A DNA stretch of 64,000 nucleotides from Streptomyces aquilus. Its GTDB lineage: Bacteria; Actinomycetota; Actinomycetes; Streptomycetales; Streptomycetaceae. Position numbers and translations under genes: made by a program. Shown piece after piece: positions 11,871 to 27,501 of the stretch. Positions within the stretch are counted from its first letter, which is position 1; each line of letters opens with the position of its first letter. Location: NCBI RefSeq assembly GCF_003955715.1, contig NZ_CP034463.1, forward strand, positions 9,052,001-9,116,000. The letters are read 5' to 3'. Below the pieces are notes generated by a model. It was given only the letters and a program-made list of their open reading frames with translations. It searched no databases and was not told the DNA's origin.

Positions 11871-12878
11871 TCAGTTCGTCGCGGCCGCGATGCGCAGCGG
11901 CACGAGTTCCTGGCCGCCGTTGTCCTCACCGCGGCGGCTGACCCCCGCCCACCAGGACGGGCCGTCCTCGATGTGGCGCAGCAGGATGCCCTCGCGGATC
12001 GCCCACGGGCAGATGCTGACGGCCTTGATGCCGGTCAGCTTCATGGCCGTGTGGCCGACCAGCGCGCCGGCCAGGCTCTGGCCGGCCCGTGGCGCGGAGA
12101 TGCCGGGGAGCAGAGCGCGCTCGGCGGCGGGCAGGCCGGCCAGCCGGGTGATCGCCGCACGCAGGTCCGAGCGGCGCAACTCCCGTTCCACGAACGGTCC
12201 GTGCCGCCCGGGCCGCGCTCCGCACAACCTGCCCAGCTGCTGGAACGTACGGGACGTGGCCACCGCCGTGTGCGGCCCCTCCCAGCGGATCCGGGCCGCC
12301 ACGTCCCGCAGCTGATGCCGGACCCGGCGCCGCAGCGCCCGCAGCAGCTCCGGCGACGGCGGGTCCTCGCCGCGGAAGAACTCGTGGGTCAGCCGGCCCG
12401 CGCCCAGCGGCAGCGAGGCCACGAAGTCCGGCAACCTGCCGCGTCCGAAGGCCACTTCGAGGGAGCCGCCCCCGATGTCCAGCAGCGCCAGCGGCCCCGA
12501 CCGCCAGCCCATCCAGCGCCGTGCCCCGAGGAAGGTCAGCTCCGCCTCCAGTTCGCCGGGCAGGGTGCACAGCTCGACCCCGGTGCGGGTGCGTACGGCA
12601 CGCAGCACCTCTCGGCAGTTCGGCGCGCCGCGCACCACCGCCGTGGCGAAGGCCAGCGGAGGGGCCGAGCCCCACTCGGTCGCCGTCCGGTCCGCCTCGG
12701 CCACGGCGGCGACGAGTCTGTCGACCGCCTCCTCGGGCACGGGGCCACCCGGCTCCACCTGTTCGGACAGGCGCAGCCGCCATTTCGCGGTGTGCACGGG
12801 CAGCGGTACCCCGCCCTCGGCGTCCGCCACCACCAGCCGGACCGTCTTCGACCCCACATCCACCACGCTGATTCGCAT
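11871..12878 (-). CDS. Ppx/GppA-type exopolyphosphatase-like protein
   Basis: A 335-residue protein of the ASKHA-fold Ppx/GppA family. The N-terminal phosphate-1 loop reads 'VVDVGSKTVRLVVAD' (usually a-D-x-G-T/S-N-S) and the phosphate-2 loop 'ALLDIGGGSLEVAFG' is near residue 140. The acid 'GELEAELTF' lies just before it. These proteins hydrolyse polyphosphate or pppGpp; actinobacterial members of this short type often differ in activity. ATG 12878 starts at the family N-terminus; a GTG 36 nt upstream is possible. The small 56-aa gene follows it. Confidence 0.85.
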   Translation of the reverse strand: MRISVVDVGSKTVRLVVADAEGGVPLPVHTAKWRLRLSEQVEPGGPVPEEAVDRLVAAVAEADRTATEWGSAPPLAFATAVVRGAPNCREVLRAVRTRTGVELCTLPGELEAELTFLGARRWMGWRSGPLALLDIGGGSLEVAFGRGRLPDFVASLPLGAGRLTHEFFRGEDPPSPELLRALRRRVRHQLRDVAARIRWEGPHTAVATSRTFQQLGRLCGARPGRHGPFVERELRRSDLRAAITRLAGLPAAERALLPGISAPRAGQSLAGALVGHTAMKLTGIKAVSICPWAIREGILLRHIEDGPSWWAGVSRRGEDNGGQELVPLRIAAATN

Positions 12879-12959
12879 GGACCCGTGAGTACCCGATGCG
12901 GGGCCTTTCCTCACCGCGCCGGCGTGTGATGCGCGCTAACCGGACAGGCACGGCGGCGA

Positions 12960-16356: not shown

Positions 16357-19173
16357 CTACGCCATCTGCCGCCTCACCAGCTCGTGCAGCCGCCCGTTCG
16401 TGTCCGCGAGGAGGTGTGCGGGCGGGCCCTGCTGGGCGACCTTGCCGTCCTCCATCACGATCACGCGGTCGGCGTCCAGCACCGTGGACAGACGGTGCGC
16501 GATGACGATGCGGGTGGCGTTGAGGGCCTTCGTGGACTCGATGACCGTGCGCTGCGTCTCGTTGTCGAGGGCGCTGGTCGCCTCGTCGAAGAACAGGATG
16601 CGCGGGCGGCGGATCAACGCCTGGGCGATCATGAGCCGTTGACGCTGGCCGCCGGAGACGGCTCCGCTGCCGGAGACGATCGTGTGCAGGCCCATCGGCA
16701 TCCGCTGGATGTCCTCCGCGAGCCCCGCCATCTGCGCCGCCGCCATCACCTCCTCCGGGGTGTACGGCTCGTTGCCGCAGATGACGTCCATGATCGAGCC
16801 GGTGAACGGCTGGGCGTGCTGGAGCACCACCCCGCACTGCCGGCGCACCGCCGACTGGTCGAGGGCCGCCAGGTCCTGCCCGTCGTACAGCACACTGCCG
16901 GAGACCGGCGGGTCGAAGCCGATCAGCAGCCTGAGCAGCGTCGACTTGCCGCAACCGCTCGGGCCGACGATCGCCACGAACTCGCCCGGCTTCACCTCGA
17001 AGGACACGTCGTCGAGGATCAGCGGGCCGTCGTCCGAGTAGCGGAAGGACAGCCGGCGCGCCTCGATCCCGCCGGACAGCGGGCCCGGCCGGGTGCTCGC
17101 CGTGCGGACCTCCGGGGTGGCCTCCAGGACCGGCTTGATCTCCTCGAACAGCGGCAGCGCGCCCACCGCCGACACGAACGCGCCGGTCAGCTGGGTCACG
17201 GACGTCAGCACCATCGTCACCGAGGTGTTGAAGCTCAGGAACGCCGCCGCCGACATCGACCCGCGCGCCGGGCCCGCCAGCAGCATGAACATCAGCAGCG
17301 TGCAGACCGGCAGATACACCGCGCCCATCACCGTGGTGAGGTTCTTGATCCGCCCCACCTTCTGCTGGAGCTCACGGCTGCGCGCGAACTGGGCGGCCCA
17401 GGCCGCGTAGGCGTAGTTCTCGGCGGCCGCGACCCGCAGCTTGGGCAGCCCGCGCAGGGTCTGGAACGCCTGGTTGTTCAGCTTGTTGCCGAGCACCACC
17501 AGGCGCCGCTGCCAGCGCACCTGCCACAGTCCGAGCCCGAGGAACACCCCGGCGATCACGACCAGCATGCCGATCGCCGCGAACGCCATCGGCACGCTGT
17601 ACCAGAACAGCAGGCCCAGGTTCATCGCGCCGACGGTCACCGACTGGGCGACCACCGGACCGACACCGGCCAGCAGCCGGCGGATCGCGCTGATGCCCAT
17701 CGCCGCGCTCGCCAGCTCACCCGTCGAACGCTCGGTGAAGAACTTGGTGGGCAGCCTCAACAGCCGGTCCCACACGGCCGGTTGGAGGGTCGCCTCGATC
17801 CGTCCCTCCAGGCGCAGGATCGTCAGGTTCTGCAACAGCATGAAGGTGGCGGCGACGAGACTGCCGACCATCACCGCCAGACAGACCTGGACGATCAGAT
17901 GCGTCTGGGCCTTCGGTACGAACTCACCCAGCACCTTGCCGGTGGCGATGGGCACGATCGCGCCGATCGCCACCGTGACGAGGCCGCTGAGCAGGAGGTT
18001 CGTCAGGTCGCCGCCCATGTTCTGCATGCTGAACCGCAGCAGCCGCAGCGGACTGAGCGCCCGGTCGGGCAGCGGGCGGTAGAACATCACCGCGCGCGGC
18101 TCGAACTCCTCCGCGTTGGCCTTCTCGACCGGCGTCTCCCGCCCCGTCGCCGGATGCACCGCCACATAGCCGCCGCGCCGCCACAGCAGCGCGACCGGCG
18201 CCCCGGACAGCGCCCGATGGCCCACCAGCGGGCCGACGTTGTCCCGCCACCAGGTGCCGTCCAGCCGGACCGCCCGGGTGCGCACCCGCGAGGCGAGCGC
18301 GATCTGCTCCACCGGGTCGAGCCGGTCGCTGCCGGTGCCGGACTGCGCCGGATCGGTCAGGGTGATCCCGGCCGCCTGCGCCACCAGCTTGCACGCCGCG
18401 TACGAGGCGTCCGCGTCGGCGGCCGTGGCGCGCTTGCCCGACGCCTTGCCGATCGACGCCAGCAGCGTCCGGTCGGCCTGCGCGCGGACCGCCTCACCGG
18501 CCTTGATGCCCTCGGCGGTGCGGGTCTCGTGGGTGCGTTCCAGCTGCTCGATCCAGCGGTCCAGCGTGGTCAGCAGCCGGTACTGCTGGTCGACCATGGA
18601 CTGCCACACCGCGGGGTCCATCAGCAGGTCGGCGGCGGCCTCCGCGCCGTACACCGAGCCGTACTGCACACTGCCCGGCGGGACCTGCATCCAGAAGACG
18701 TCGTCGTCGGTGATCTCCGCGGCGCGTTCGCTCGCCATCGGCGCCTGGAAGAGGATGGACAGGCTGCGGCCGACACCGAGGGCGAGGGCGTACTCCAGCG
18801 GGCTCGTCGTCGGCGGGACGTACTGCGGGTTGCCGTACTCGTCGTAGGACCAGGTCTGGGTGTTCGCGGGCTGGTACAGCTCGCGCAGCCCGATGCGGTG
18901 CACCACGCAGTCCCTGAGCGGGCGGGCCACCAGGGTGTGCTGGGGGCCCGGTGTCGGGCCGAGCAGCAGCGAGCCCGCCTCCAGGCGGCCCAAGTGGTGC
19001 CAGTGGCCCTGCTGTTCGGCGTCCACCGCGAACAGGTCCACCGCACCGGACGCCACCAGCCACAGCACCTGCGGCCCTTCGAGGTCCAGGCGGGTGTGCC
19101 CGGCGAGGTCGTACGGCGTGCCCATCGAGCCGAGGGCCTGGAGGACGAGGTCCCCCTCGGGTGCGGTCGTCAT
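16357..19173 (-). CDS. NHLP bacteriocin-export ABC protein (permease/ATPase, second component)
   Basis: A 938-residue protein of the NHLP export type. About 300 N-terminal residues resemble a cyclic-nucleotide-binding-like domain followed by a helical part. Six membrane helices lie around 395-650. The ATPase has Walker A 'GPSGCGKSTLL' (about 737), signature 'VSGGQRQRLMIAQAL' and Walker B 'ILFFDEATSALD', then the H-loop 'VIAHRLST'. It has no peptidase domain and would form a heteromeric exporter with the C39-containing partner encoded 1 nt upstream. It is the last gene of the operon. Strong family call. Confidence 0.93.
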   Translation of the reverse strand: MTTAPEGDLVLQALGSMGTPYDLAGHTRLDLEGPQVLWLVASGAVDLFAVDAEQQGHWHHLGRLEAGSLLLGPTPGPQHTLVARPLRDCVVHRIGLRELYQPANTQTWSYDEYGNPQYVPPTTSPLEYALALGVGRSLSILFQAPMASERAAEITDDDVFWMQVPPGSVQYGSVYGAEAAADLLMDPAVWQSMVDQQYRLLTTLDRWIEQLERTHETRTAEGIKAGEAVRAQADRTLLASIGKASGKRATAADADASYAACKLVAQAAGITLTDPAQSGTGSDRLDPVEQIALASRVRTRAVRLDGTWWRDNVGPLVGHRALSGAPVALLWRRGGYVAVHPATGRETPVEKANAEEFEPRAVMFYRPLPDRALSPLRLLRFSMQNMGGDLTNLLLSGLVTVAIGAIVPIATGKVLGEFVPKAQTHLIVQVCLAVMVGSLVAATFMLLQNLTILRLEGRIEATLQPAVWDRLLRLPTKFFTERSTGELASAAMGISAIRRLLAGVGPVVAQSVTVGAMNLGLLFWYSVPMAFAAIGMLVVIAGVFLGLGLWQVRWQRRLVVLGNKLNNQAFQTLRGLPKLRVAAAENYAYAAWAAQFARSRELQQKVGRIKNLTTVMGAVYLPVCTLLMFMLLAGPARGSMSAAAFLSFNTSVTMVLTSVTQLTGAFVSAVGALPLFEEIKPVLEATPEVRTASTRPGPLSGGIEARRLSFRYSDDGPLILDDVSFEVKPGEFVAIVGPSGCGKSTLLRLLIGFDPPVSGSVLYDGQDLAALDQSAVRRQCGVVLQHAQPFTGSIMDVICGNEPYTPEEVMAAAQMAGLAEDIQRMPMGLHTIVSGSGAVSGGQRQRLMIAQALIRRPRILFFDEATSALDNETQRTVIESTKALNATRIVIAHRLSTVLDADRVIVMEDGKVAQQGPPAHLLADTNGRLHELVRRQMA

Positions 19174-19174
19174 C

Positions 19175-21397
19175 TCAGCGCTCCCTGACCAGAGCCGCGT
19201 ACGCGCCGCCGCGCGCCACCAGCTCCTCGTGCCGTCCGCGTTCCACGATCGTGCCGTGCTGGAGTACGACGATCTCGTCGCTGTCCCGCACGGTGCTCAG
19301 CCGGTGCGCGATCACCACACAGGCGCAGCCGCGCTTGCGGAGGTTGTCCATCACCGTCTGCTCGGTCTCTGCGTCCAGTGCGCTCGTCACCTCGTCGAGG
19401 ACGAGGATGCTGGGCCGCCGGACCAACGCCCGCGCGATCTCCAGGCGTTGACGCTGGCCGCCGGAGAAGTTCCGGCCGTCCTGCTCGACCCGGCTGTTGA
19501 TGCCACCGGGGCGACGCATCACCACGTCGTACAGGGCGGCGTCCCGCAGCGCGTCCACCACCGCGTCGTCCGGGATCGACGGGTCCCACAGCGCCACGTT
19601 GTCGCGGACCGAGCCCTCGAAGAGGAAGACGTCCTGGTCGACGAAGGAGACGGAGGAGGCGAGGGCGCCGCGCGGGATGTCCTCCAGGCGCCGGCCGTCG
19701 ATGCGGATGACGCCCTCCCAGGGCGCGTACAGGCCGGATATCAGCCGGGAGACCGTCGACTTGCCGCTGCCCGAACCGCCGACCAGCGCCACCTGCTGCC
19801 CCGGGCCGACCGTCAGGTCGAAGCCGGTCAGCAGGGGCTTGTCCAGCGGGTTGTAGCCGAAGGAGATGTTCTGGAGCTCCACGTGCCCGTGCAGCCGGCG
19901 GGTCGACTCGGCGCCGCCGGCCCGGCCGTAGAGCGGGTCGGCCTGGAAGTTCTCCACGTCCTTCAGGCGGGCCACGTCGGCCGCGAAGTCCTGGATGCGG
20001 CCCGCGACGCCGTTGAGGCGGGTGATGGGGGCGGTGAAGCGGGTGACCAGCGACTGGAAGGCGACGAGCAGGCCGACCGAGATACCGCCCTCGACGGCGC
20101 GCATGCCGCCGATCCACAGGATCACCGCGCTGTTCAGCGAGGCCAGCGTCGGCGCGACCACGCCCAGCCAGGCGGACGGCACCCCGAGCCGCTGCTGCTC
20201 CTCCAGGGTGGTGGCGTGCTGCCCGGCCCACTTGCGGAAGTAGCCGTCCTCGCCGCCGGTCGCCTTCATCGTCTCGATCAACTGAAGGCCCGTGTAGGCG
20301 GTGTTGGTCAACCGGGCGCTGTCCGCGCGGAGTTTGGCGGTGCGGGTGGCGCGCAGCCGGATGACCACGCGCATGGCGACGATGTTCAGCAGCGCGACGC
20401 CGATGCCGACGAACGTCAACTGCGGGTCGTAGGTGTAGAGGAGGACGGCGTAGAGAACGACGACCACCGCGTCCACGCCCGCCGCCGCGAGATCGCGGGC
20501 CAGCGTCTCGGCCACCGCGTCGTTGGACTGGAGCCGCTGCACCAGGTCGGCCGGGCTGCGCTGGGAGAAGAACGTCACCGGCAGCCGCAGCAGATGGCGC
20601 AGGAAGCGGGCGCTGGAGAGGGTCGAGGAGATGATGCGGCCGCGCAGCAGGTTCGCCTGCTGGAGCCAGGTCAGGACCAGGGTGAGCGCCACACACGTTC
20701 CCATCGACGCGAACAGCACGCCGAGCAGGGAGGTCTGGCCCCCGATGAGGAACATGTCGATGTAGACGCGGCTCAGCGCGGGCACCGCCGCGCCCACCAG
20801 CACCAGCAGCAGGCTCGCCAGCACCGCGGCCGGCATGGTGCCCGCGGTGCCGCGCAGCCGGGCCGGCATCGCGCCCAGCACCCCGGGCTTGCGGCCACCC
20901 TTGGTGAAGCCGTCACCCGGCTCCATGATCAGGACGACGCCGGTGAAGCTGGAGTCGAAGTCCTCCATCGGCACGAACCGGCGGCCCTTGCCGGGGTCGT
21001 TGATGTAGACGCCGCGGCGGCCGAAGCGGCGGCCCATGCCGTCGTAGACGACGTAGTGGTTGAACTCCCAGAACAGCACGGCCGGCGCCTTCACCTCGGC
21101 GAGGGCGGCCGTGTCCATCTGCATGCCCTTGGCCGTCAGACCGTAACCGCGGGCCGCCTTCAGCAGGTTGCTGGCGCGCGAGCCGTCGCGGGAGACACCG
21201 CACGCGATGCGCAGCTCCTCCAGCGGGACGTGCTTGCCGAAGTGGCCGAGGACCATCGCGAGGGAGGCGGCGCCGCACTCCACGGCCTCCATCTGGAGAA
21301 CGGTGGGCGTGCGGACCGTCTTGCCCTTGCCCTTGGGCACCGGGCGCTTGGGCGGGGCGGACCGGCGGCGGCTACGGGTCTCCTGTGCGGTGCTCAC
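19175..21397 (-). CDS. NHLP-family export ABC protein with C39 peptidase domain
   Basis: A 740-residue peptidase/permease/ATPase. I start it at GTG 21397, which overlaps the TGA of the HlyD-like gene (GTGA) and so is coupled. The C39 domain has Cys in 'AVECGAASLAMVLG' (about 43), His in 'EFNHYVVYDG' and Asp in 'YINDPGKG': an intact Cys protease that should cut after the Gly-Gly of the leader. Six membrane helices follow, then Walker A 'GGSGSGKST', signature 'NFSGGQRQRLEIARAL' and Walker B 'ILVLDEVTSALD'. It should both mature and export the precursor. Confidence 0.95.
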   Translation of the reverse strand: MSTAQETRSRRRSAPPKRPVPKGKGKTVRTPTVLQMEAVECGAASLAMVLGHFGKHVPLEELRIACGVSRDGSRASNLLKAARGYGLTAKGMQMDTAALAEVKAPAVLFWEFNHYVVYDGMGRRFGRRGVYINDPGKGRRFVPMEDFDSSFTGVVLIMEPGDGFTKGGRKPGVLGAMPARLRGTAGTMPAAVLASLLLVLVGAAVPALSRVYIDMFLIGGQTSLLGVLFASMGTCVALTLVLTWLQQANLLRGRIISSTLSSARFLRHLLRLPVTFFSQRSPADLVQRLQSNDAVAETLARDLAAAGVDAVVVVLYAVLLYTYDPQLTFVGIGVALLNIVAMRVVIRLRATRTAKLRADSARLTNTAYTGLQLIETMKATGGEDGYFRKWAGQHATTLEEQQRLGVPSAWLGVVAPTLASLNSAVILWIGGMRAVEGGISVGLLVAFQSLVTRFTAPITRLNGVAGRIQDFAADVARLKDVENFQADPLYGRAGGAESTRRLHGHVELQNISFGYNPLDKPLLTGFDLTVGPGQQVALVGGSGSGKSTVSRLISGLYAPWEGVIRIDGRRLEDIPRGALASSVSFVDQDVFLFEGSVRDNVALWDPSIPDDAVVDALRDAALYDVVMRRPGGINSRVEQDGRNFSGGQRQRLEIARALVRRPSILVLDEVTSALDAETEQTVMDNLRKRGCACVVIAHRLSTVRDSDEIVVLQHGTIVERGRHEELVARGGAYAALVRER

Positions 21398-22200
21398 GGC
21401 AGCAGCCAATCGACGGGACGCTGGTCGGCGAGACGGATCGAACCCCGGGCCACGGTCATGGAGGTGAGGGCGAACGGCGGCCCGTCCGCCGACGACCACC
21501 GGTAACCGCTCTTCGTACCGGACGACTTGTCCAGCCTCACCGTCACGGCCACCGGCCTGCCGTCCTTCGTGAACTGCTCGCCGAGCTGGCTGTCGCCGAG
21601 GAACGCGGAGATCTGCTGCGCCGACTGCGCCGAACGGTCCACCGCCTTCACATGGCCGCGCAGCACGCCGTACTCCTGCGTCGGCACCGACGACACCGTC
21701 AGGTCCACGGCCGCGTTCGCGGGGATCGAGGCGGCGTTCTCGGCGGGGACGTACACGGTGGCGTACAGCGGATCGGAGGCGTGCGCGACCCTCTCCACGG
21801 CCGCCACGTTGGCGCCGGTCTGGATGATCTGGCCGATGGTGGCGGCGAGCGCGGTGACCCGGCCCGCGGCGACCGAGCGGACGACGGTGTCACCGTCCGC
21901 GGTGCGCACCTTCAACACCGGGGAGTCGGCGGGCAGCCGCTCGCCCTGCTCGGCTAGGACGGCGGTGACCTGGCCCGCGACCGGGCTCTGCAGGATGTAA
22001 CTGCCCTGCCCGTGGGTGAGGATGGCGGGCGCGCCCACGGTGGAGGCGACCGAACCGGTGACCGCCCACACTGACGCGGCGGCCATCACGACCACCGTCA
22101 CGGACAGCGCGAGCCACCCCTGAGGGCGGGCGAACCGCACCGGAAGGTCGAGCTCCTCCGGCGACTGGAGCTTGGCGAGGGCCTGTTGGCGGAACTGCAC
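21394..22200 (-). CDS. NHLP-system HlyD-like secretion protein
   Basis: A 268-residue membrane-fusion-type adaptor. I choose GTG 22200 because GAGGGAAAG lies six nt upstream and the product then starts in the family manner ('QFRQQALAKLQSPEELDLPV'). A GTG at 22215 is the alternative. One transmembrane helix lies near 33-53. The external part has the lipoyl-like half 'SPVAGQVTAVLAEQGERLP' and a beta-barrel end. In actinobacteria without an outer membrane it may form an external guide for the exported peptide. It is the first gene after the precursor gene. Confidence 0.9.
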   Translation of the reverse strand: MQFRQQALAKLQSPEELDLPVRFARPQGWLALSVTVVVMAAASVWAVTGSVASTVGAPAILTHGQGSYILQSPVAGQVTAVLAEQGERLPADSPVLKVRTADGDTVVRSVAAGRVTALAATIGQIIQTGANVAAVERVAHASDPLYATVYVPAENAASIPANAAVDLTVSSVPTQEYGVLRGHVKAVDRSAQSAQQISAFLGDSQLGEQFTKDGRPVAVTVRLDKSSGTKSGYRWSSADGPPFALTSMTVARGSIRLADQRPVDWLLP

Positions 22201-22231
22201 GGAACTTTCCCTCACCTGAAAACGAGGAAGG

Positions 22232-22297
22232 ACCGGCTGACGGCAGCCGGTTGAGTCAGGACATCCGAGAGCCCCGGAGCCGGGGAGCGGCTCCGGG
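22232..22297 (-). terminator. Two hairpins between precursor and export genes (attenuator candidate)
   Basis: accggct/agccggt (22232-22238, 22245-22251) and cccggagccg/cggctccggg (22273-22282, 22288-22297) form two stems in the 117-nt gap. Such partial terminators or RNA stabilisers would let the precursor message exceed that of the transporters. Confidence 0.55.
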
Positions 22298-22317
22298 ACT
22301 CACGGCACGAGGTGCGA

Positions 22318-22533
22318 TCAGAGACCGGCGACCAGGTTCGTGACCGGGGCCACGGAGAGGCCGGTGGTGCCCTCGACCGTGCCGACGACCGTGTCGACCA
22401 GGCCGGAGACCGGGGCGACGCCGTCCACCAGGCCGGTGACGGTGCCCAGGGCGTTCAGCTGCAGGCCGCCGGAGACGTTGTCGAGCTCGGCGTCGGAGAT
22501 CTCGACGGTCTCAACCTGGGGGGTGGAGTTCAT
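22318..22533 (-). CDS. Gly-Gly leader peptide precursor of the NHLP export operon, Cys-free
   Basis: A 71-residue peptide; ATG 22533 has a GAAGGGAAG ribosome site. The acidic leader 'EISDAELDNVSGG' ends in the double-Gly site (residues 22-23) expected for the C39 domain of the neighbouring ABC protein. The 48-residue remainder is rich in Val, Gly, Leu and Thr with two related stretches, 'TGLVDGVAPVSGLV' and 'TGLSVAPVTNLV'. It contains no Cys, His, Trp or Tyr, so lanthionine or thiazole chemistry cannot occur on Cys. Peptides of this type in Streptomyces are sometimes called type A2 lantipeptides; the sequence here does not support that name. Product activity is unknown. Confidence 0.85.
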   Translation of the reverse strand: MNSTPQVETVEISDAELDNVSGGLQLNALGTVTGLVDGVAPVSGLVDTVVGTVEGTTGLSVAPVTNLVAGL

Positions 22534-22993
22534 GGTGGAACTTCCCTTCATATGGATATTCACAAGGGGGGAGCGGACCCCTGGCAGGGGCGGCCGCGTG
22601 CCGCAGGCGCCAGGCACCCGTTTCCGGAAAACCCTTCGCGGCTGCCGCGGTGCGATGGATAAAAGCACGCGCCGGGCACGGGCTTCCAATCAACCAACCG
22701 CCTCACCAGGGCACTTGAGTCCCACAGGCAACGAACCGTGCAGGCATGCGCACGTCTCTGCGGCGACTTCTTCACAAGCGGGACGTCCTCGGTTCACACG
22801 AGGCCTTGCGGCCCGCGAGGCGAATCCGACACTCCCGCCCCAATGACGTACGCGGCGGAGCACGCTTGTGCAGATCCGCCGCGCACGGTGACTTGGTTGG
22901 GTATTGGATGTGCAGATTCGCTGAAGCCGGGATTCCGCGGGAACTTCGGAACCGACCGTTGCCGACCGATCGCGGACCGTGTCAGTCCGGTTG
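22534..22993. other. Non-coding stretch upstream of the precursor gene
   Basis: About 460 nt with no supported gene, of visibly lower GC than the surroundings. It must carry the promoter of the NHLP operon on the minus strand. I cannot pick out convincing -35 and -10 boxes. Short ORFs here lack ribosome sites and codon bias. Confidence 0.5.
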
Positions 22994-23407
22994 TCAGCCG
23001 AGAAGTGCGTAGACCGTGCTCGCCCGGGCCGCGAGTTCCCCTGAGCCCGCGTCGGTCATCGTGATGTCGGCGAACGCCATGCGCCGACCCAGCTTGGTGA
23101 TCACCGCCTGGATCAGGACATCCGAACCGGACACCGCGCGCTGGAACGACGTCGACTGCTGCACGGTCGTCATCGGCCCGTAGCCGCCTCGCGCCGCCGC
23201 CACGGCGATCACGGTGGCGGTGTCCGCGGCGGCCATCAGCGCCTGCCCCGACAGCGCGCCGCCCTCCCGGGACAGCCGGTCCGACCAGGGAAGGCGCAGG
23301 GTCGCCCGGTCCGCGCCCAGGGACTCGACCGACAGGCCCAGGTCGAGCACCCAAGGGGCGAAGTTGGCGGAGAGGATCTTGTCGGCTTCGGCGGTGGTCA
23401 TCGTCAT
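22994..23407 (-). CDS. PaaI-family hot-dog thioesterase
   Basis: A 137-residue single hot-dog domain. The 'GGALSGQALMAAADTATVIAV' segment corresponds to the family's central helix with the catalytic Asp/Glu region, and 'TTVQQSTSFQRAVSGSDVLIQAVITKLGRR' forms the following strands. Such enzymes hydrolyse aryl- or acyl-CoA esters as tetramers. The ATG at 23407 begins at the family N-terminus; no strong ribosome site is visible, and the frame stays open to 23515. It stands alone between two unrelated transcription units. Confidence 0.8.
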   Translation of the reverse strand: MTMTTAEADKILSANFAPWVLDLGLSVESLGADRATLRLPWSDRLSREGGALSGQALMAAADTATVIAVAAARGGYGPMTTVQQSTSFQRAVSGSDVLIQAVITKLGRRMAFADITMTDAGSGELAARASTVYALLG

Positions 23408-23606
23408 ATGGGGGATTGTTCCCGCTCCCGCGCCGCCGGACGCGGATCCCGGCCGGTCCCGTGGCCGATTCGGTACTGCAAAGAGACTGCCAACAAACGG
23501 AATTGAACGCCCCACGTGCCTCCTGCGTACCCCTTGCCATCCAGGCGCCCCGAACAGCCGCCGACGAACGGTGGCACTGACCCCGTCCTTCAGGAGGTCG
23601 AGAAGT

Positions 23607-24977
23607 TTGAGTCACAAGCGAATCCCCAAGCGCAAGGCCGCGATCGCGGCAGGCGGCGTGGTGGCGCTCGGAGCGGCGGCGATCCTCCTGCCCAACGCCA
23701 ACGCCTCCCAGGACGGCTCCTCGTCCAACGGGGCCGCGGCAGCGCCGAAGACGCTGAAGGCGTCGGACGCATCGGATCTCGCCTCACAGCTCCAGGAACT
23801 GCTCGGCGAGGCCTTCGCCGGTTCGTACTACGACACGGACCAGAAGCAGCTCGTCGTCAACGTCGTCTCGGGCGACAACAACAACGTCATCGTCCAGGCC
23901 GAGAAGGCCGGCGCGAAGATACGCGAGGTCGACAACAGCCTCGCCGAACTCGCCGCGGGCGCGCAGACGCTGAAGACCCGGGCGACCATCCCGGGCACCG
24001 CGTGGGCCGTCGACCCCAGGACGAACAAGATCCTGGTCACCGCCGACAGCACGGTCACCGGCGCCAAGTGGGACCGGCTGGAGTCGACGGTCGACACTCT
24101 CGGCTCGGGCATGGCGACCATCAAGAAGTCGGCCGGCACCTTCAAGACCTTCGTCTCCGGCGGCGACGCCATCTTCGGCGGCGGCGCCCGCTGCTCGGCC
24201 GGGTTCAACGTCACCGCGGGCGACGGCAGCCCGGCCTTCCTGACGGCCGGTCACTGCGGGGTCGCGGCGGCCGAGTGGTCCGACGCGCAGGACGGCCAGC
24301 CGATCGCCACCGTCGACCAGGCCACGTTCCCCGGCGACGGTGACTTCGCGCTCGTGAAGTACGACGACCCGGCCACGGTCGCGCCGAGCGAGGTCAACGT
24401 CGGCGACGGCCAGACCGTGCAGATCTCCCAGGCCGCCGACGCCGAGGTGGGCCTCCAGGTCTTCAGAATGGGCAGCACCACCGGGCTCAAGGACGGCCAG
24501 GTCCTCGGACTCGACGCCACGGTGAACTACCCGGAGGGCACGGTCACCGGCCTCATCCAGACCGACGTCTGCGCCGAGCCCGGCGACAGCGGCGGCTCGC
24601 TGTTCACCCAGGACGGGCTGGCCATCGGCCTGACCTCCGGTGGCAGCGGCGACTGCACGGTCGGCGGCGAGACCTTCTTCCAGCCGGTCACCACCGCCCT
24701 GGAGGCGGTCGGCGCGACCCTCGGCGCGGGCGACGCGGCGGGCGGCGGCGAGCAGGCGGGCGCCGGTGACGAGGCCGGTGCGGATGCCGGCGACGAGGCG
24801 GGCGCGGGCGAGGAAGCCGGTGCCGGCCAGGAGGTCGGCGGCGAGGAAGCGGGCGCCGGCCAGGAAGTCGGCGGTGAGGAGGCCGGCCAGCAGGCCGGTG
24901 GCGGCCAGGAGGTCGGCGGCCAGGACACCGGTGCGGGTGCCGAACAGGGCGACTCCGGCCTGACCGAGACCCACTGA
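23607..24977 (+). CDS. Secreted S1-family (alpha-lytic/streptogrisin-like) serine protease with Gly/Glu-rich tail
   Basis: The start is TTG 23607 with AGGAGG at 23592-23597, giving 456 residues. A basic signal peptide ('KRIPKRKAAIAAGGVVALGAAAILL') is followed by an alpha-lytic-type pro-region of about 150 residues. The protease domain has His in 'TAGHCG', Asp in 'GDGDFALVKY' and Ser in 'EPGDSGGSLF', with Cys pairs at 'ARCSAG/GHCG' and 'DVC/GDC'. The last 80 residues are a low-complexity tail of Gly, Ala, Glu and Gln with repeats like AGQEVGGEE. That tail is unusual for streptogrisins and could be a wall- or surface-associated linker. Confidence 0.9.
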   Translation: MSHKRIPKRKAAIAAGGVVALGAAAILLPNANASQDGSSSNGAAAAPKTLKASDASDLASQLQELLGEAFAGSYYDTDQKQLVVNVVSGDNNNVIVQAEKAGAKIREVDNSLAELAAGAQTLKTRATIPGTAWAVDPRTNKILVTADSTVTGAKWDRLESTVDTLGSGMATIKKSAGTFKTFVSGGDAIFGGGARCSAGFNVTAGDGSPAFLTAGHCGVAAAEWSDAQDGQPIATVDQATFPGDGDFALVKYDDPATVAPSEVNVGDGQTVQISQAADAEVGLQVFRMGSTTGLKDGQVLGLDATVNYPEGTVTGLIQTDVCAEPGDSGGSLFTQDGLAIGLTSGGSGDCTVGGETFFQPVTTALEAVGATLGAGDAAGGGEQAGAGDEAGADAGDEAGAGEEAGAGQEVGGEEAGAGQEVGGEEAGQQAGGGQEVGGQDTGAGAEQGDSGLTETH

Positions 24978-25044: not shown

Positions 25045-27180
25045 TCACCGCGCCCGCAGCAGCAGCAACGCCACGTCGTCGATCCGCTCCTGCGCGGCCC
25101 CGCCCTGCCCCACCAGTTCGTCCGCCAACGCGTCCAGCGGCAGATCCCCGGCCTCCGCCAGCCGCCGGCCCAGATCGGCGAGAGCGTCCTCGATGTCGAC
25201 GCCCGGGGACTCGATGAGGCCGTCGGTGTAGAGGACCAGCACGCTGCCCGGAGCCAGCTCGACCTCGGTCGTCGGATACGTCGCCGAGCCGTCGATGCCC
25301 AGCAGCGGACCGCCGGCCAGGTCGAGGACGCGCACCCTGCCGTCCGGGCGGCGCAGCAGCGGCGGAGGATGTCCCGCCCGTGCCATCACGGCCCGCCCGT
25401 GGGCCGGATCGAGCCGTAGGTACAGACAGCTGGCGAAGAGGTCCGAGCCCAGGTCGATCAGCAGCCGGTTGGTGCTGCTCATGACGTCCTGCGGGGCCTG
25501 TCCGACGGTCGTGTACGCCCGTACCGCGGTCCGGATCTGCCCCATCAGCCCGGCCGCCGTGACGTTGTGCCCCTGCACGTCCCCGATCACCGCCGACGCC
25601 ACCCCGTGCGAGGGCACCAGGTCGTAGAAGTCGCCGCCGATGTCCATGCCCTGCGTGGCCGGCAGATAGCGGGCGGCCGCGTGGATGCCGGGCAGCGCCG
25701 GGAGCGAGTGGGGGAGCAGGGCCTCCTGGAGGCCGTGGGCGAGCCGGTGTTTGGCGTCGTACAGCATCGCCCGTTCCAGGGCCTGCGCGATCAGCCCGCC
25801 GAGGCTCGTCAGGACCGCCCGTTCGTCCGCCGGGAAGGGGTGCGGCTCGGCGTAGGCCAGTACGCAGGTGCCCACCGGCCGGCCGGAGGCGATCAGCGGC
25901 AGATACGCCCAGGCGGCGAACCCGTCCGGGGTCGCGTTCCGGACCGGATACAGGCGCTCCAGCTCCCGCCGCGAGTCGAAGAACGCCGGCACCCCGCTGT
26001 TCAGGGCCTGCGTGCCCGGCGTCGGCTCGGTCAGCGGCAGCCCGTCGAACCGCTCCACGACACGCGGGTCGGGATAACCGCGGTGGCCCAGCACATGCAG
26101 TCGTCCCGCCCGGGACGCGAGCATGACCAGGGCCTGCCCGCCGACCGCCGGGACGATCTCGTCCGCGACGAGCTGCACCACGTCCTCCACGCCCGCCGCC
26201 TCGGTGAGCGCCCCGGCCAGGCTCAGCACCTGCGAGATGGTCACCAGCCGGGAGGGGGCGCCGTCCCCCTGCGGAGCGGTCCGGCTCATCTCCGCCACCG
26301 CTCGCGCCCGGCTGATGCGCACGCTCAGCCCGGTCGTGCTCGGATACAGCCGGAACGACAGCCAGTCGCCGGGCGGCCGCAGCGCCACGAACGACGTCGT
26401 CTGCTGACTGATCAGCGCGGCCCGGTAACGGTCCTCGTACACCGGGTCGTTGAGCCAGGGCACCGACGCCCAGGGCTGGGTGCCGAGGAGTCTGCTGACG
26501 GGGACGCCGATCAGCTCGGCCGCCGCCGCGTTGGCGAACGCGATCCGGCCGTGCAGATCCAGCGAGCACAGTCCGTACGGCAGCCGCGACACCATCCGGG
26601 CCGCCTCCACCGTGCCGAGGGTGCCCGCCGCCCCGCCGGCCGCCGTCCCGGCCAGCAGATCCGGTTCCGGGAACACCGGGCGGCTCTCCTCGGCGGCCCG
26701 CTCCAGGCGTACCGCGAGCCGCCCGCAGGCCGCGCTCAGATGGTCCCGCTCCCGGTCGGACAGCTCCGGCGGATGCGAGCCGGGCCAGGTCACGAAGATC
26801 GCGCCGTGCACCTTGGTGTCCGTCGCCACCGGCAGCGCGGCCAGCGCGAAGGGGTAGGGGAGCACCACCGCGATCCGCGGATAGCGGCGGGCCATCTCCT
26901 CCTCGCCGCCCACCCACACCAGCCGCCGCTCCCGGACCGCCTCGGCGACCGGGATCGGCGCGCTGAGCCCGACCCGCTCCCACGGCGCCGCGAAGGCCCG
27001 CGGCAGCCCGGCCATCACCGCCATCTCCAGGACCGGCTCGCCGGACGCCAGCAGGTACACCGCGCCCGAGTGGGCGTGCACCTCGTCCATCATCGAGGCC
27101 AGTGCCAGGGACAGCAGCGGCCGGCCGACCCGCGTCCGGGCGGCCGCCGGCGCCTGCGCGGTCCTCGGCACGTCGGACAC
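25045..27180 (-). CDS. SpoIIE-type PP2C phosphatase with GAF and PAS sensors
   Basis: A 711-residue protein starting at GTG 27180 behind GAGGAGGTG. It has a GAF-like domain (about 20-190), a PAS domain ('VSRLPYGLCSLDLHGRIAFANAAA', about 220-310), a second GAF domain (about 325-480) and a PP2C/SpoIIE phosphatase domain (about 490-711) with the metal-binding 'MDIGGDFYDL', 'VIGDVQGHN' and 'DDVALLLL' motifs. Such proteins dephosphorylate anti-anti-sigma factors. No anti-sigma kinase domain is fused, unlike the second phosphatase in this window. It is divergent from ramR across 321 nt. Confidence 0.92.
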   Translation of the reverse strand: MSDVPRTAQAPAAARTRVGRPLLSLALASMMDEVHAHSGAVYLLASGEPVLEMAVMAGLPRAFAAPWERVGLSAPIPVAEAVRERRLVWVGGEEEMARRYPRIAVVLPYPFALAALPVATDTKVHGAIFVTWPGSHPPELSDRERDHLSAACGRLAVRLERAAEESRPVFPEPDLLAGTAAGGAAGTLGTVEAARMVSRLPYGLCSLDLHGRIAFANAAAAELIGVPVSRLLGTQPWASVPWLNDPVYEDRYRAALISQQTTSFVALRPPGDWLSFRLYPSTTGLSVRISRARAVAEMSRTAPQGDGAPSRLVTISQVLSLAGALTEAAGVEDVVQLVADEIVPAVGGQALVMLASRAGRLHVLGHRGYPDPRVVERFDGLPLTEPTPGTQALNSGVPAFFDSRRELERLYPVRNATPDGFAAWAYLPLIASGRPVGTCVLAYAEPHPFPADERAVLTSLGGLIAQALERAMLYDAKHRLAHGLQEALLPHSLPALPGIHAAARYLPATQGMDIGGDFYDLVPSHGVASAVIGDVQGHNVTAAGLMGQIRTAVRAYTTVGQAPQDVMSSTNRLLIDLGSDLFASCLYLRLDPAHGRAVMARAGHPPPLLRRPDGRVRVLDLAGGPLLGIDGSATYPTTEVELAPGSVLVLYTDGLIESPGVDIEDALADLGRRLAEAGDLPLDALADELVGQGGAAQERIDDVALLLLRAR

Positions 27181-27501
27181 GCCGACCACCTCCTCGCGCG
27201 CCCCGAGGGACCCGGAGCCCGGAGCCCGGCGTGCGACGGGCTCCGGGATCAAATCTGCCCCCTGGCGGCGGGACGCGCACGGCGAGCGGACCGGACCCGG
27301 CGGCGGCCGCGCCCTCTACCCCGTCCACCCCCGCCCATGCCCCCGCAATCGAAGCGCGGGGCAGCGTACGAGAGCCGTCCGTGCGCCCCCGCGCACCCCG
27401 TTGGCCGGTTCTTCGCGCCAGGGAAAGGTGCCGAACACGAACAATGGGGCAGACGTTTCTCACCCATGGAACCGGCGAACGGCAACGCGAGGGGACGGGC
27501 A
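27181..27501. other. Divergent promoter region between the phosphatase and ramR
   Basis: 321 nt without a supported gene. ccccgc/gcgggg (27341-27346, 27356-27361) can form a small hairpin. Promoters for both genes must lie here; I see no convincing boxes. Confidence 0.4.

Follow-up and report, generated by a model that had tools for sequence, protein, structure and literature searches.

In the stretch of the Streptomyces aquilus genome analysed here (64,000 nucleotides of contig NZ_CP034463.1, positions 9,052,001 to 9,116,000; hereafter the window), a double-glycine (Gly-Gly) precursor peptide gene was found at the head of a full NHLP export operon, and no modifying enzyme was found linked to it. 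The operon is of the SCO0753-SCO0756 type, already known from Streptomyces coelicolor. The original prediction had recognised the precursor and its export genes, which lie on the minus strand, and its reading of export without a linked enzyme stood. Its proposal of an undescribed system did not, as the available parts of a 2019 paper report the S. coelicolor operon (PMC6629963), and the prediction had missed unlinked precursors that carry this leader and in some cases a related 5' untranslated region (UTR). Overall, the SCO0753-type system is probably a group of unmodified Gly-Gly peptides of Streptomyces that use one exporter and act on the cell envelope. Transcription of the precursor gene would start at a regulated promoter and give a structured 5' UTR, the C39 domain of the NHLP exporter encoded next to the precursor would remove the double-glycine leader, and the predicted unmodified, acidic, Gly/Val-rich core of 48 residues would leave the cell. 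The same exporter probably serves unlinked precursors that keep the leader and partly the promoter and UTR, while their cores differ. Once outside the cell, the peptides most likely act on the envelope or hyphal surface of the producer, perhaps self-associating in membranes, and not as a classical bacteriocin.

The leader of the precursor, MNSTPQVETVEISDAELDNVSGG, showed hydrophobic residues at -4, -7 and -12 relative to the cleavage point, which are the positions where C39 leaders typically have them. The core that follows was predicted to lack Cys, His, Tyr and Trp, which was borne out, and it also lacks Lys, Arg, Phe, Met and Ile while Thr and Ser occur in it. A total of 625 precursor homologues were found at E ≤ 0.01, and the gene is therefore not a chance open reading frame. 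Among the 120 homologues listed of these 625, identity ranged from 83 to 94%, the organism-named ones were Streptomyces, none of the operon-type cores contained Cys (0/120) and 119 of the 120 cores had a GxxxG motif. The core net charge was -2 or -3 in all 81 sequences compared. The nonsynonymous/synonymous ratio over these 81 sequences was 0.18 in the leader part and 0.54 in the core part, estimated on the loci nearest to the query with a method that ignores codon bias; by this estimate the core evolves faster than the leader yet stays constrained. No nitrile-hydratase-like or Nif11-like leader model was among the NCBIfam and Pfam matches of the 71-residue precursor at E ≤ 1. The label "type A2 lantipeptide", which the original prediction had questioned, was indeed unsupported: the absence of a nearby LanM and of Cys in the core speaks against lanthipeptide identity, and the Pfam model for Type-A lantibiotics reached 12.4 bits on the precursor against a cut-off of 21.7.

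The gene order on the minus strand was precursor, hlyD, C39-ABC and ABC2. The span first proposed for the system (21394-22533) covers the peptide and HlyD while the exporter extends to 16357. The C39-ABC protein scored 1023.6 bits with TIGR03796 (cut-off 853.3) and ABC2 scored 896.1 bits with TIGR03797 (cut-off 709.4), while HlyD with 147.8 bits was slightly under the cut-off of TIGR03794 (156.2). The start of the C39-ABC gene was set at a GTG overlapping the hlyD stop, the open frame beginning at 21499. Among the 60 matches listed for the C39 exporter in a search of solved structures, all were ABC transporters as expected, C39-type bacteriocin transporters included. In the whole genome (10.39 Mb, one contig), a single C39 domain was found at E ≤ 0.001, that of the operon exporter, and a single HlyD match at E ≤ 1e-15.

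Pfam matches for twelve reading frames at 9.6-31.9 kb of the window comprised AHSA1, alpha/beta hydrolase, MFS, Ppx/GppA, 4HBT thioesterase, S1-type protease, SpoIIE phosphatase and two ABC proteins, with three frames giving no match. No LanM/LanC, YcaO, radical SAM or nitrile hydratase was present among these frames, in agreement with the earlier statement that the neighbouring genes encode no modifying enzyme. For the comparison of loci, the 80 best of 346 relatives were used (79 titled Streptomyces and one "Actinobacteria bacterium", with peptide identity up to 100%). The hlyD, ABC1 and ABC2 genes were directly downstream of the peptide gene in 80/80 loci, and no modifying enzyme, LanM included, recurred among the scanned neighbours near the operon. 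A conserved enzyme in most homologous loci had been named as one finding that would overturn the proposal, which thus withstood this comparison.

A profile of 15 precursors searched in a class sample matched 30 of 40 same-genus genomes and 1 of 354 others, the latter weakly (E 8.2e-4); "same genus" and "family" are used here as the kinship labels of the genome set. A second genus within the family has operons as well (L061, L066 and L067). A HlyD search in 36 genomes gave matches of at least 59% identity in 24 genomes and of 38-39% only in three, with none in nine; one of the 24 holds a second HlyD match at 34%. Precursors were already known from the leader search in 16 of the 24, and the other eight, without a leader match, showed a divergent Gly-Gly precursor just upstream of the exporter. 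For the 20 controls without a leader match, any HlyD was found in 11 and HlyD of at least 59% identity in eight. The HlyD match holds one in-frame TAG in three genomes (G064, G142 and G150). The three genomes with HlyD at only 38-39% identity (L162, L163 and L164) all had YcaO genes near the exporter, and a nitroreductase gene was found there in L162 and L163, both checked for it; this exporter lineage probably belongs to thiazole/oxazole-type peptide clusters. Since YcaO-linked NHLP exporters occur in the same genus, linked enzymes would have been noticed at the peptide loci.

New in this analysis is a second precursor in the same genome (5078831-5079052), 4 Mb away from the operon and between MFS and AraC-type genes, which keeps the same leader and a similar promoter and 5' UTR and has a different core. 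BLASTP of the operon precursor against the remote one aligned residues 1-24 alone (75% identical). When the cores were aligned with each other, 14 of 52 columns were identical; shuffled sequences reached that score in 22 of 500 cases, and at this level the two cores show no clear relatedness. Ten reading frames in the 20 kb around the remote precursor were scanned, and none was recognised as an exporter gene. Given one C39 peptidase and one such HlyD in a one-contig genome, the operon exporter probably also serves the remote precursor, in trans.

The leader search matched 204 of 394 family genomes. Twenty precursor regions, mostly second copies, were fetched (11-20 kb each, some ending at contig ends) and consisted of five operons and 15 orphans. 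The orphan stretches had no orthologues of HlyD, C39-ABC or ABC2; two of them (L051 and L055) had unrelated ABC proteins at 29-37%. Orphan cores were rich in Gly, Val, Ala and Ser and mostly without Cys, and one orphan type recurs in neighbourhoods that are mostly different. In the class sample, second and weaker precursor matches were present in eight of the 30 matching same-genus genomes and in none of the 10 non-matching ones. Orphan-bearing genomes were picked mostly as second copies where at least two leader matches existed and the 20 controls were picked for having no match; because of this selection no P value is claimed for an enrichment of exporters with orphans. Tandem pairs of orphan precursors were seen in two loci (L063:9257-9965 and L064:9753-10597), with a common leader and differing Gly-rich cores, and no exporter was found within the approximately 10 kb fetched on either side of them.

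An RNA model (R1) was built from 18 UTRs (12 operon and 6 orphan), leaving out the UTR of the remote precursor described above. Searched over the whole own genome, R1 matched two places only, the operon UTR (E 4.6e-27, itself a model row) and the UTR of the remote precursor (E 2.1e-8). In 20 other, hand-picked genomes (16 with the system and four without), 21 matches, four of them identical to model rows, were spread over all 16 genomes with the system, and none occurred in the four without. By pattern, 20 of the 21 were directly 5' of a Gly-Gly precursor and the remaining one (L200) also precedes a family precursor. In the genomes searched, the R1 UTR is thus confined to the operon and some of the orphans. 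A weak match (L204, G139:C1:6708042-6708154, E 2.5e-4) was located before a precursor whose core differs strongly and contains Cys. Over 65 aligned UTRs, 94.4% of the cells of the structure were paired. Nine two-sided pairs were counted, compared with 5.0 ± 1.3 in shuffles (0/500 reached this count) and at most five when slid, which is support and not proof as the structure had guided the alignment, whose rows are related. The last hairpin of the UTR includes the GAAGGG ribosome-binding site, present in 81/81 sequences. A -35/-10 reading of TTGATT...TGCTTTGATCC was rejected as non-canonical, and the element was kept as promoter-like. Copies of the GTGnnGnAnTCGCC repeat with at most one mismatch were found twice in 44, once in 35 and not at all in two of the 81 upstream regions, and in 0/80 control stretches. 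An operator common to operon and orphans was also set aside, as most regions upstream of orphans lack the repeat, and control of both by one regulator is at most a possibility.

The available parts of PMC6629963 describe SCO0753 as a peptide of 77 residues without cysteines, 57% hydrophobic and of unknown function, located upstream of SCO0754 (HlyD) and SCO0755-0756 (ABC), with SCO0757 as an exopolyphosphatase, and state that the peptide and its secretion operon are conserved in many Streptomyces. According to the same excerpts, SCO0753 was the most raised gene in a dispersed-growth strain with an activated Sco5282/Sco5283 two-component system, of which Sco5282 is the kinase, and SCO0753 and the export genes were nearly silent in the Sco5282/Sco5283 null mutant. 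In excerpts of other papers, SCO0753 was raised in an aor1 mutant (PMC5733086), while SCO0756 was slightly lowered in a copper-homeostasis mutant (PMC6414726) and raised in a ppm1 mutant (PMC5882110). A "type A2 lantipeptide" gene was taken as antimicrobial from its name in the passages seen of PMC13047742, and the passages of a two-component system review do not name the peptide (PMC9739842). The titles and abstract openings searched, which covered few subscription papers, included none pointing to a function of the peptide or to unlinked precursors. Within that literature, the wider set of unlinked precursors with a shared exporter may not have been noticed before.

The coordinates of the features are given in Table 1. 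Besides the export genes, the neighbours found in over half of the 80 loci were the S1-type protease (79) and the PAS-GAF-SpoIIE phosphatase (73), which flank the operon, Ppx (56) and MFS (51). Further families found in 12 or more of the 80 loci, annotated by Pfam on exemplars, were ABC proteins, a LuxR-type regulator (approximately 5.6 kb away in 24/80 loci), 4HBT thioesterase, sugar-nucleotide enzymes, AHSA1 protein, an ArsR-type regulator, alpha/beta hydrolase, subtilisin inhibitor and one family without a Pfam match. In 23 and 21 of the 80 loci, respectively, a haem-oxygenase-like protein and a methyltransferase (L082:17829-19726 and counterparts) are encoded downstream of the peptide, at a distance of approximately 7.6-8.6 kb; among these neighbours this pair alone resembles tailoring enzymes, and it is distal and confined to a minority of the loci. 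Next to six distant operon loci, the ten genes annotated included G6PD, globin-type flavoprotein, succinyl-CoA-type ATP-grasp ligase, MFS, GH30, SDR and RpiR regulator, with three giving no match. The hairpin between the peptide gene and hlyD showed compensatory changes in 3 of 13 pairs (18 sequences) and may be a partial terminator or an RNA-processing site, perhaps setting the ratio of peptide to exporter. Rfam gave a single sub-threshold match, mraW with 21.3 against 50 bits, on this intergenic hairpin, and nothing at gathering scores in four related loci.

Table 1. Features of the precursor and export locus in the window.
Feature	Position	Strand	Remarks
NHLP export ABC permease/ATPase (ABC2)	16357..19173	-	938 residues; TIGR03797
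C39 peptidase/permease/ATPase (ABC1)	19175..21397	-	TIGR03796
NHLP-type HlyD secretion protein	21394..22215	-	273 residues; TIGR03794; SCO0754 counterpart
Conserved hairpin in the gap between peptide gene and hlyD	22269..22301	-	13 consensus pairs, without U-run
Gly-Gly precursor gene	22318..22533	-	71 residues: 23-residue leader ending VSGG and 48-residue core; SCO0753 counterpart
Promoter-like box and 5' UTR	22534..22667	-	TGCTTTTATCC box at 22657-22667; hairpin with GAAGGG ribosome-binding site at 22544-22549
GTGnnGnAnTCGCC direct repeat, second copy	22762..22775	-	57 nt downstream of the first
GTGnnGnAnTCGCC direct repeat, upstream copy	22819..22832	-	Candidate response-regulator site
4HBT thioesterase gene	22994-23515		Pfam
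S1 (alpha-lytic-type) protease gene	23214..24977	+	Divergent; true start probably further in
PAS-GAF-SpoIIE phosphatase	25045..27252	-	
Ppx/GppA phosphatase	11871..12914	-	Like SCO0757 exopolyphosphatase; outside the proposed mechanism

The conserved, acidic and GxxxG-rich core together with the two-component control suggests self-association of the peptide at the membrane or surface of the producer. A broader proposal is only tentative: a dispersed regulon in which one C39/NHLP exporter serves unlinked precursors with a partly shared UTR and promoter, their cores diversifying while the leader and UTR can still be recognised, and acting as interchangeable surface or membrane peptides in hyphal envelope physiology. 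Its estimated probability was lowered a little because the UTR is shared by some orphans only. Several results weigh against the envelope-acting set. At E ≤ 0.05, R1 matched eight of the 15 orphan loci and missed seven; six of these seven had neither an R1 match nor the TGCTTTGATCC box, and L055 had the box only. The R1 match was missing in one of the five fetched operons (L067), and for the eight second, weaker precursor matches of the class sample it was found before the one of the own genome only and before none of the other seven. Cys was present in 3 of 15 orphan cores, as also in the L204 core and in 3 of 45 sequences homologous to the remote precursor of the own genome. A single AlphaFold2 run on the precursor gave no confident fold (mean predicted local distance difference test score 52). 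The absence of modification was judged from the genes near the operon, the rest of the genome not having been screened for LanM, YcaO or radical SAM enzymes. Finally, the available text of PMC6629963 puts dispersal down mainly to lowered matB and other genes, and the link of the peptide to the envelope is thus only correlative.

A different use of the same parts would be that the operon and remote peptides are antibacterial, perhaps as partners, and leave through one C39 transporter as unmodified class IIb-like bacteriocins. C39 exporters commonly serve bacteriocins, GxxxG was found in nearly all cores listed, and the orphan homologue P0161 passed the NCBIfam model for cerein 7B/lactobin A (TIGR03949; 27.8 against 21.5 bits). 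The S. coelicolor papers, in the parts available, class the operon as a bacteriocin cluster, with no activity test described there. The window peptide itself was below every bacteriocin cut-off, including lactococcin G-beta (13.6 against 37 bits) and Bacteriocin_IIc (11.6 against 27.1 bits). Class IIb-like bacteriocins are usually cationic whereas all 81 cores were acidic, and the peptide of the operon has a wide distribution (30/40 same-genus genomes) and is well conserved. A search for a partner and an immunity gene found the second leader peptide 4 Mb off and recognised no immunity gene, while small unknown genes remain; none was recognised either among the neighbours shared by 12 or more of the 80 loci. 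On this evidence a bacteriocin role is unlikely.

It is more doubtful still that the peptide is a ribosomally synthesised and post-translationally modified peptide whose enzyme is encoded elsewhere in the genome and which is exported here after modification. Unlinked precursors do exist in this peptide family, the core has Thr and Ser, and the haem-oxygenase-like/methyltransferase pair lies 7.6-8.6 kb off in 21-23 of the 80 loci. However, no linked enzyme was found in the window and none was recurrent near the operon in the 80 loci, the operon-type cores listed are free of Cys, and YcaO genes are linked to related NHLP exporters whose cargo probably is modified. A secreted signal sensed by a sensor kinase would agree with the two-component control of SCO0753 in the excerpts of PMC6629963 and with one exporter having several cargoes, but the neighbours that recur in the 80 loci included no recognisable sensor kinase. 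Furthermore, the hydrophobic core of 48 residues is long for a pheromone, and such a role appears improbable.

The database name "lantipeptide" misdirects natural-product mining, as the peptides here look like unmodified cargo. The gene most raised by an activated two-component system that controls morphology has no assigned function. If one exporter does serve scattered precursors, the leader and partly the UTR would allow the secreted set of a genome to be listed, and deletion of the single exporter would test the role of that set in a well-studied bacterial genus.

Compared with SCO0753-SCO0756 as described in the available parts of PMC6629963, the window has the same order of peptide, HlyD, ABC and ABC genes, a Ppx gene downstream and no Cys in the peptide. 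From an in-frame ATG 18 nt upstream, present in 34 of 81 sequences, the window peptide would have 77 residues and be 58% hydrophobic by our own residue set; the likeness to SCO0753 was judged by gene order, length and composition. The window differs in the AHSA1, hydrolase and MFS genes between the exporter and Ppx, and the available text of that paper does not mention unlinked precursors, a shared UTR or a comparison with YcaO-linked exporters. With the NHLP (NHLM) bacteriocin export systems (TIGR03794/03796/03797), the window shares the three export components and a Gly-Gly leader but has neither a nitrile-hydratase-like or Nif11-like leader match nor a linked modifying enzyme. The double-glycine leader and C39 exporter are also those of class II (type A2) lanthipeptides, whereas the window core has no Cys for thioether rings and no LanM is near. 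Class IIb two-peptide bacteriocins and cyanobacterial bacteriocins of the CTB family are alike in Gly-Gly peptides, GxxxG motifs and weak leader matches, and different in that the window cores are acidic, no recurrent immunity gene was recognised and the second precursor is unlinked. In prochlorosin-type systems, many dispersed precursors with one leader and diverse cores are served in trans and modified by one promiscuous LanM. The present system resembles them in its dispersed precursors, common leader, diverse cores and probable service in trans, with the difference that here only cleavage and export, and partly the promoter and UTR, would be common.

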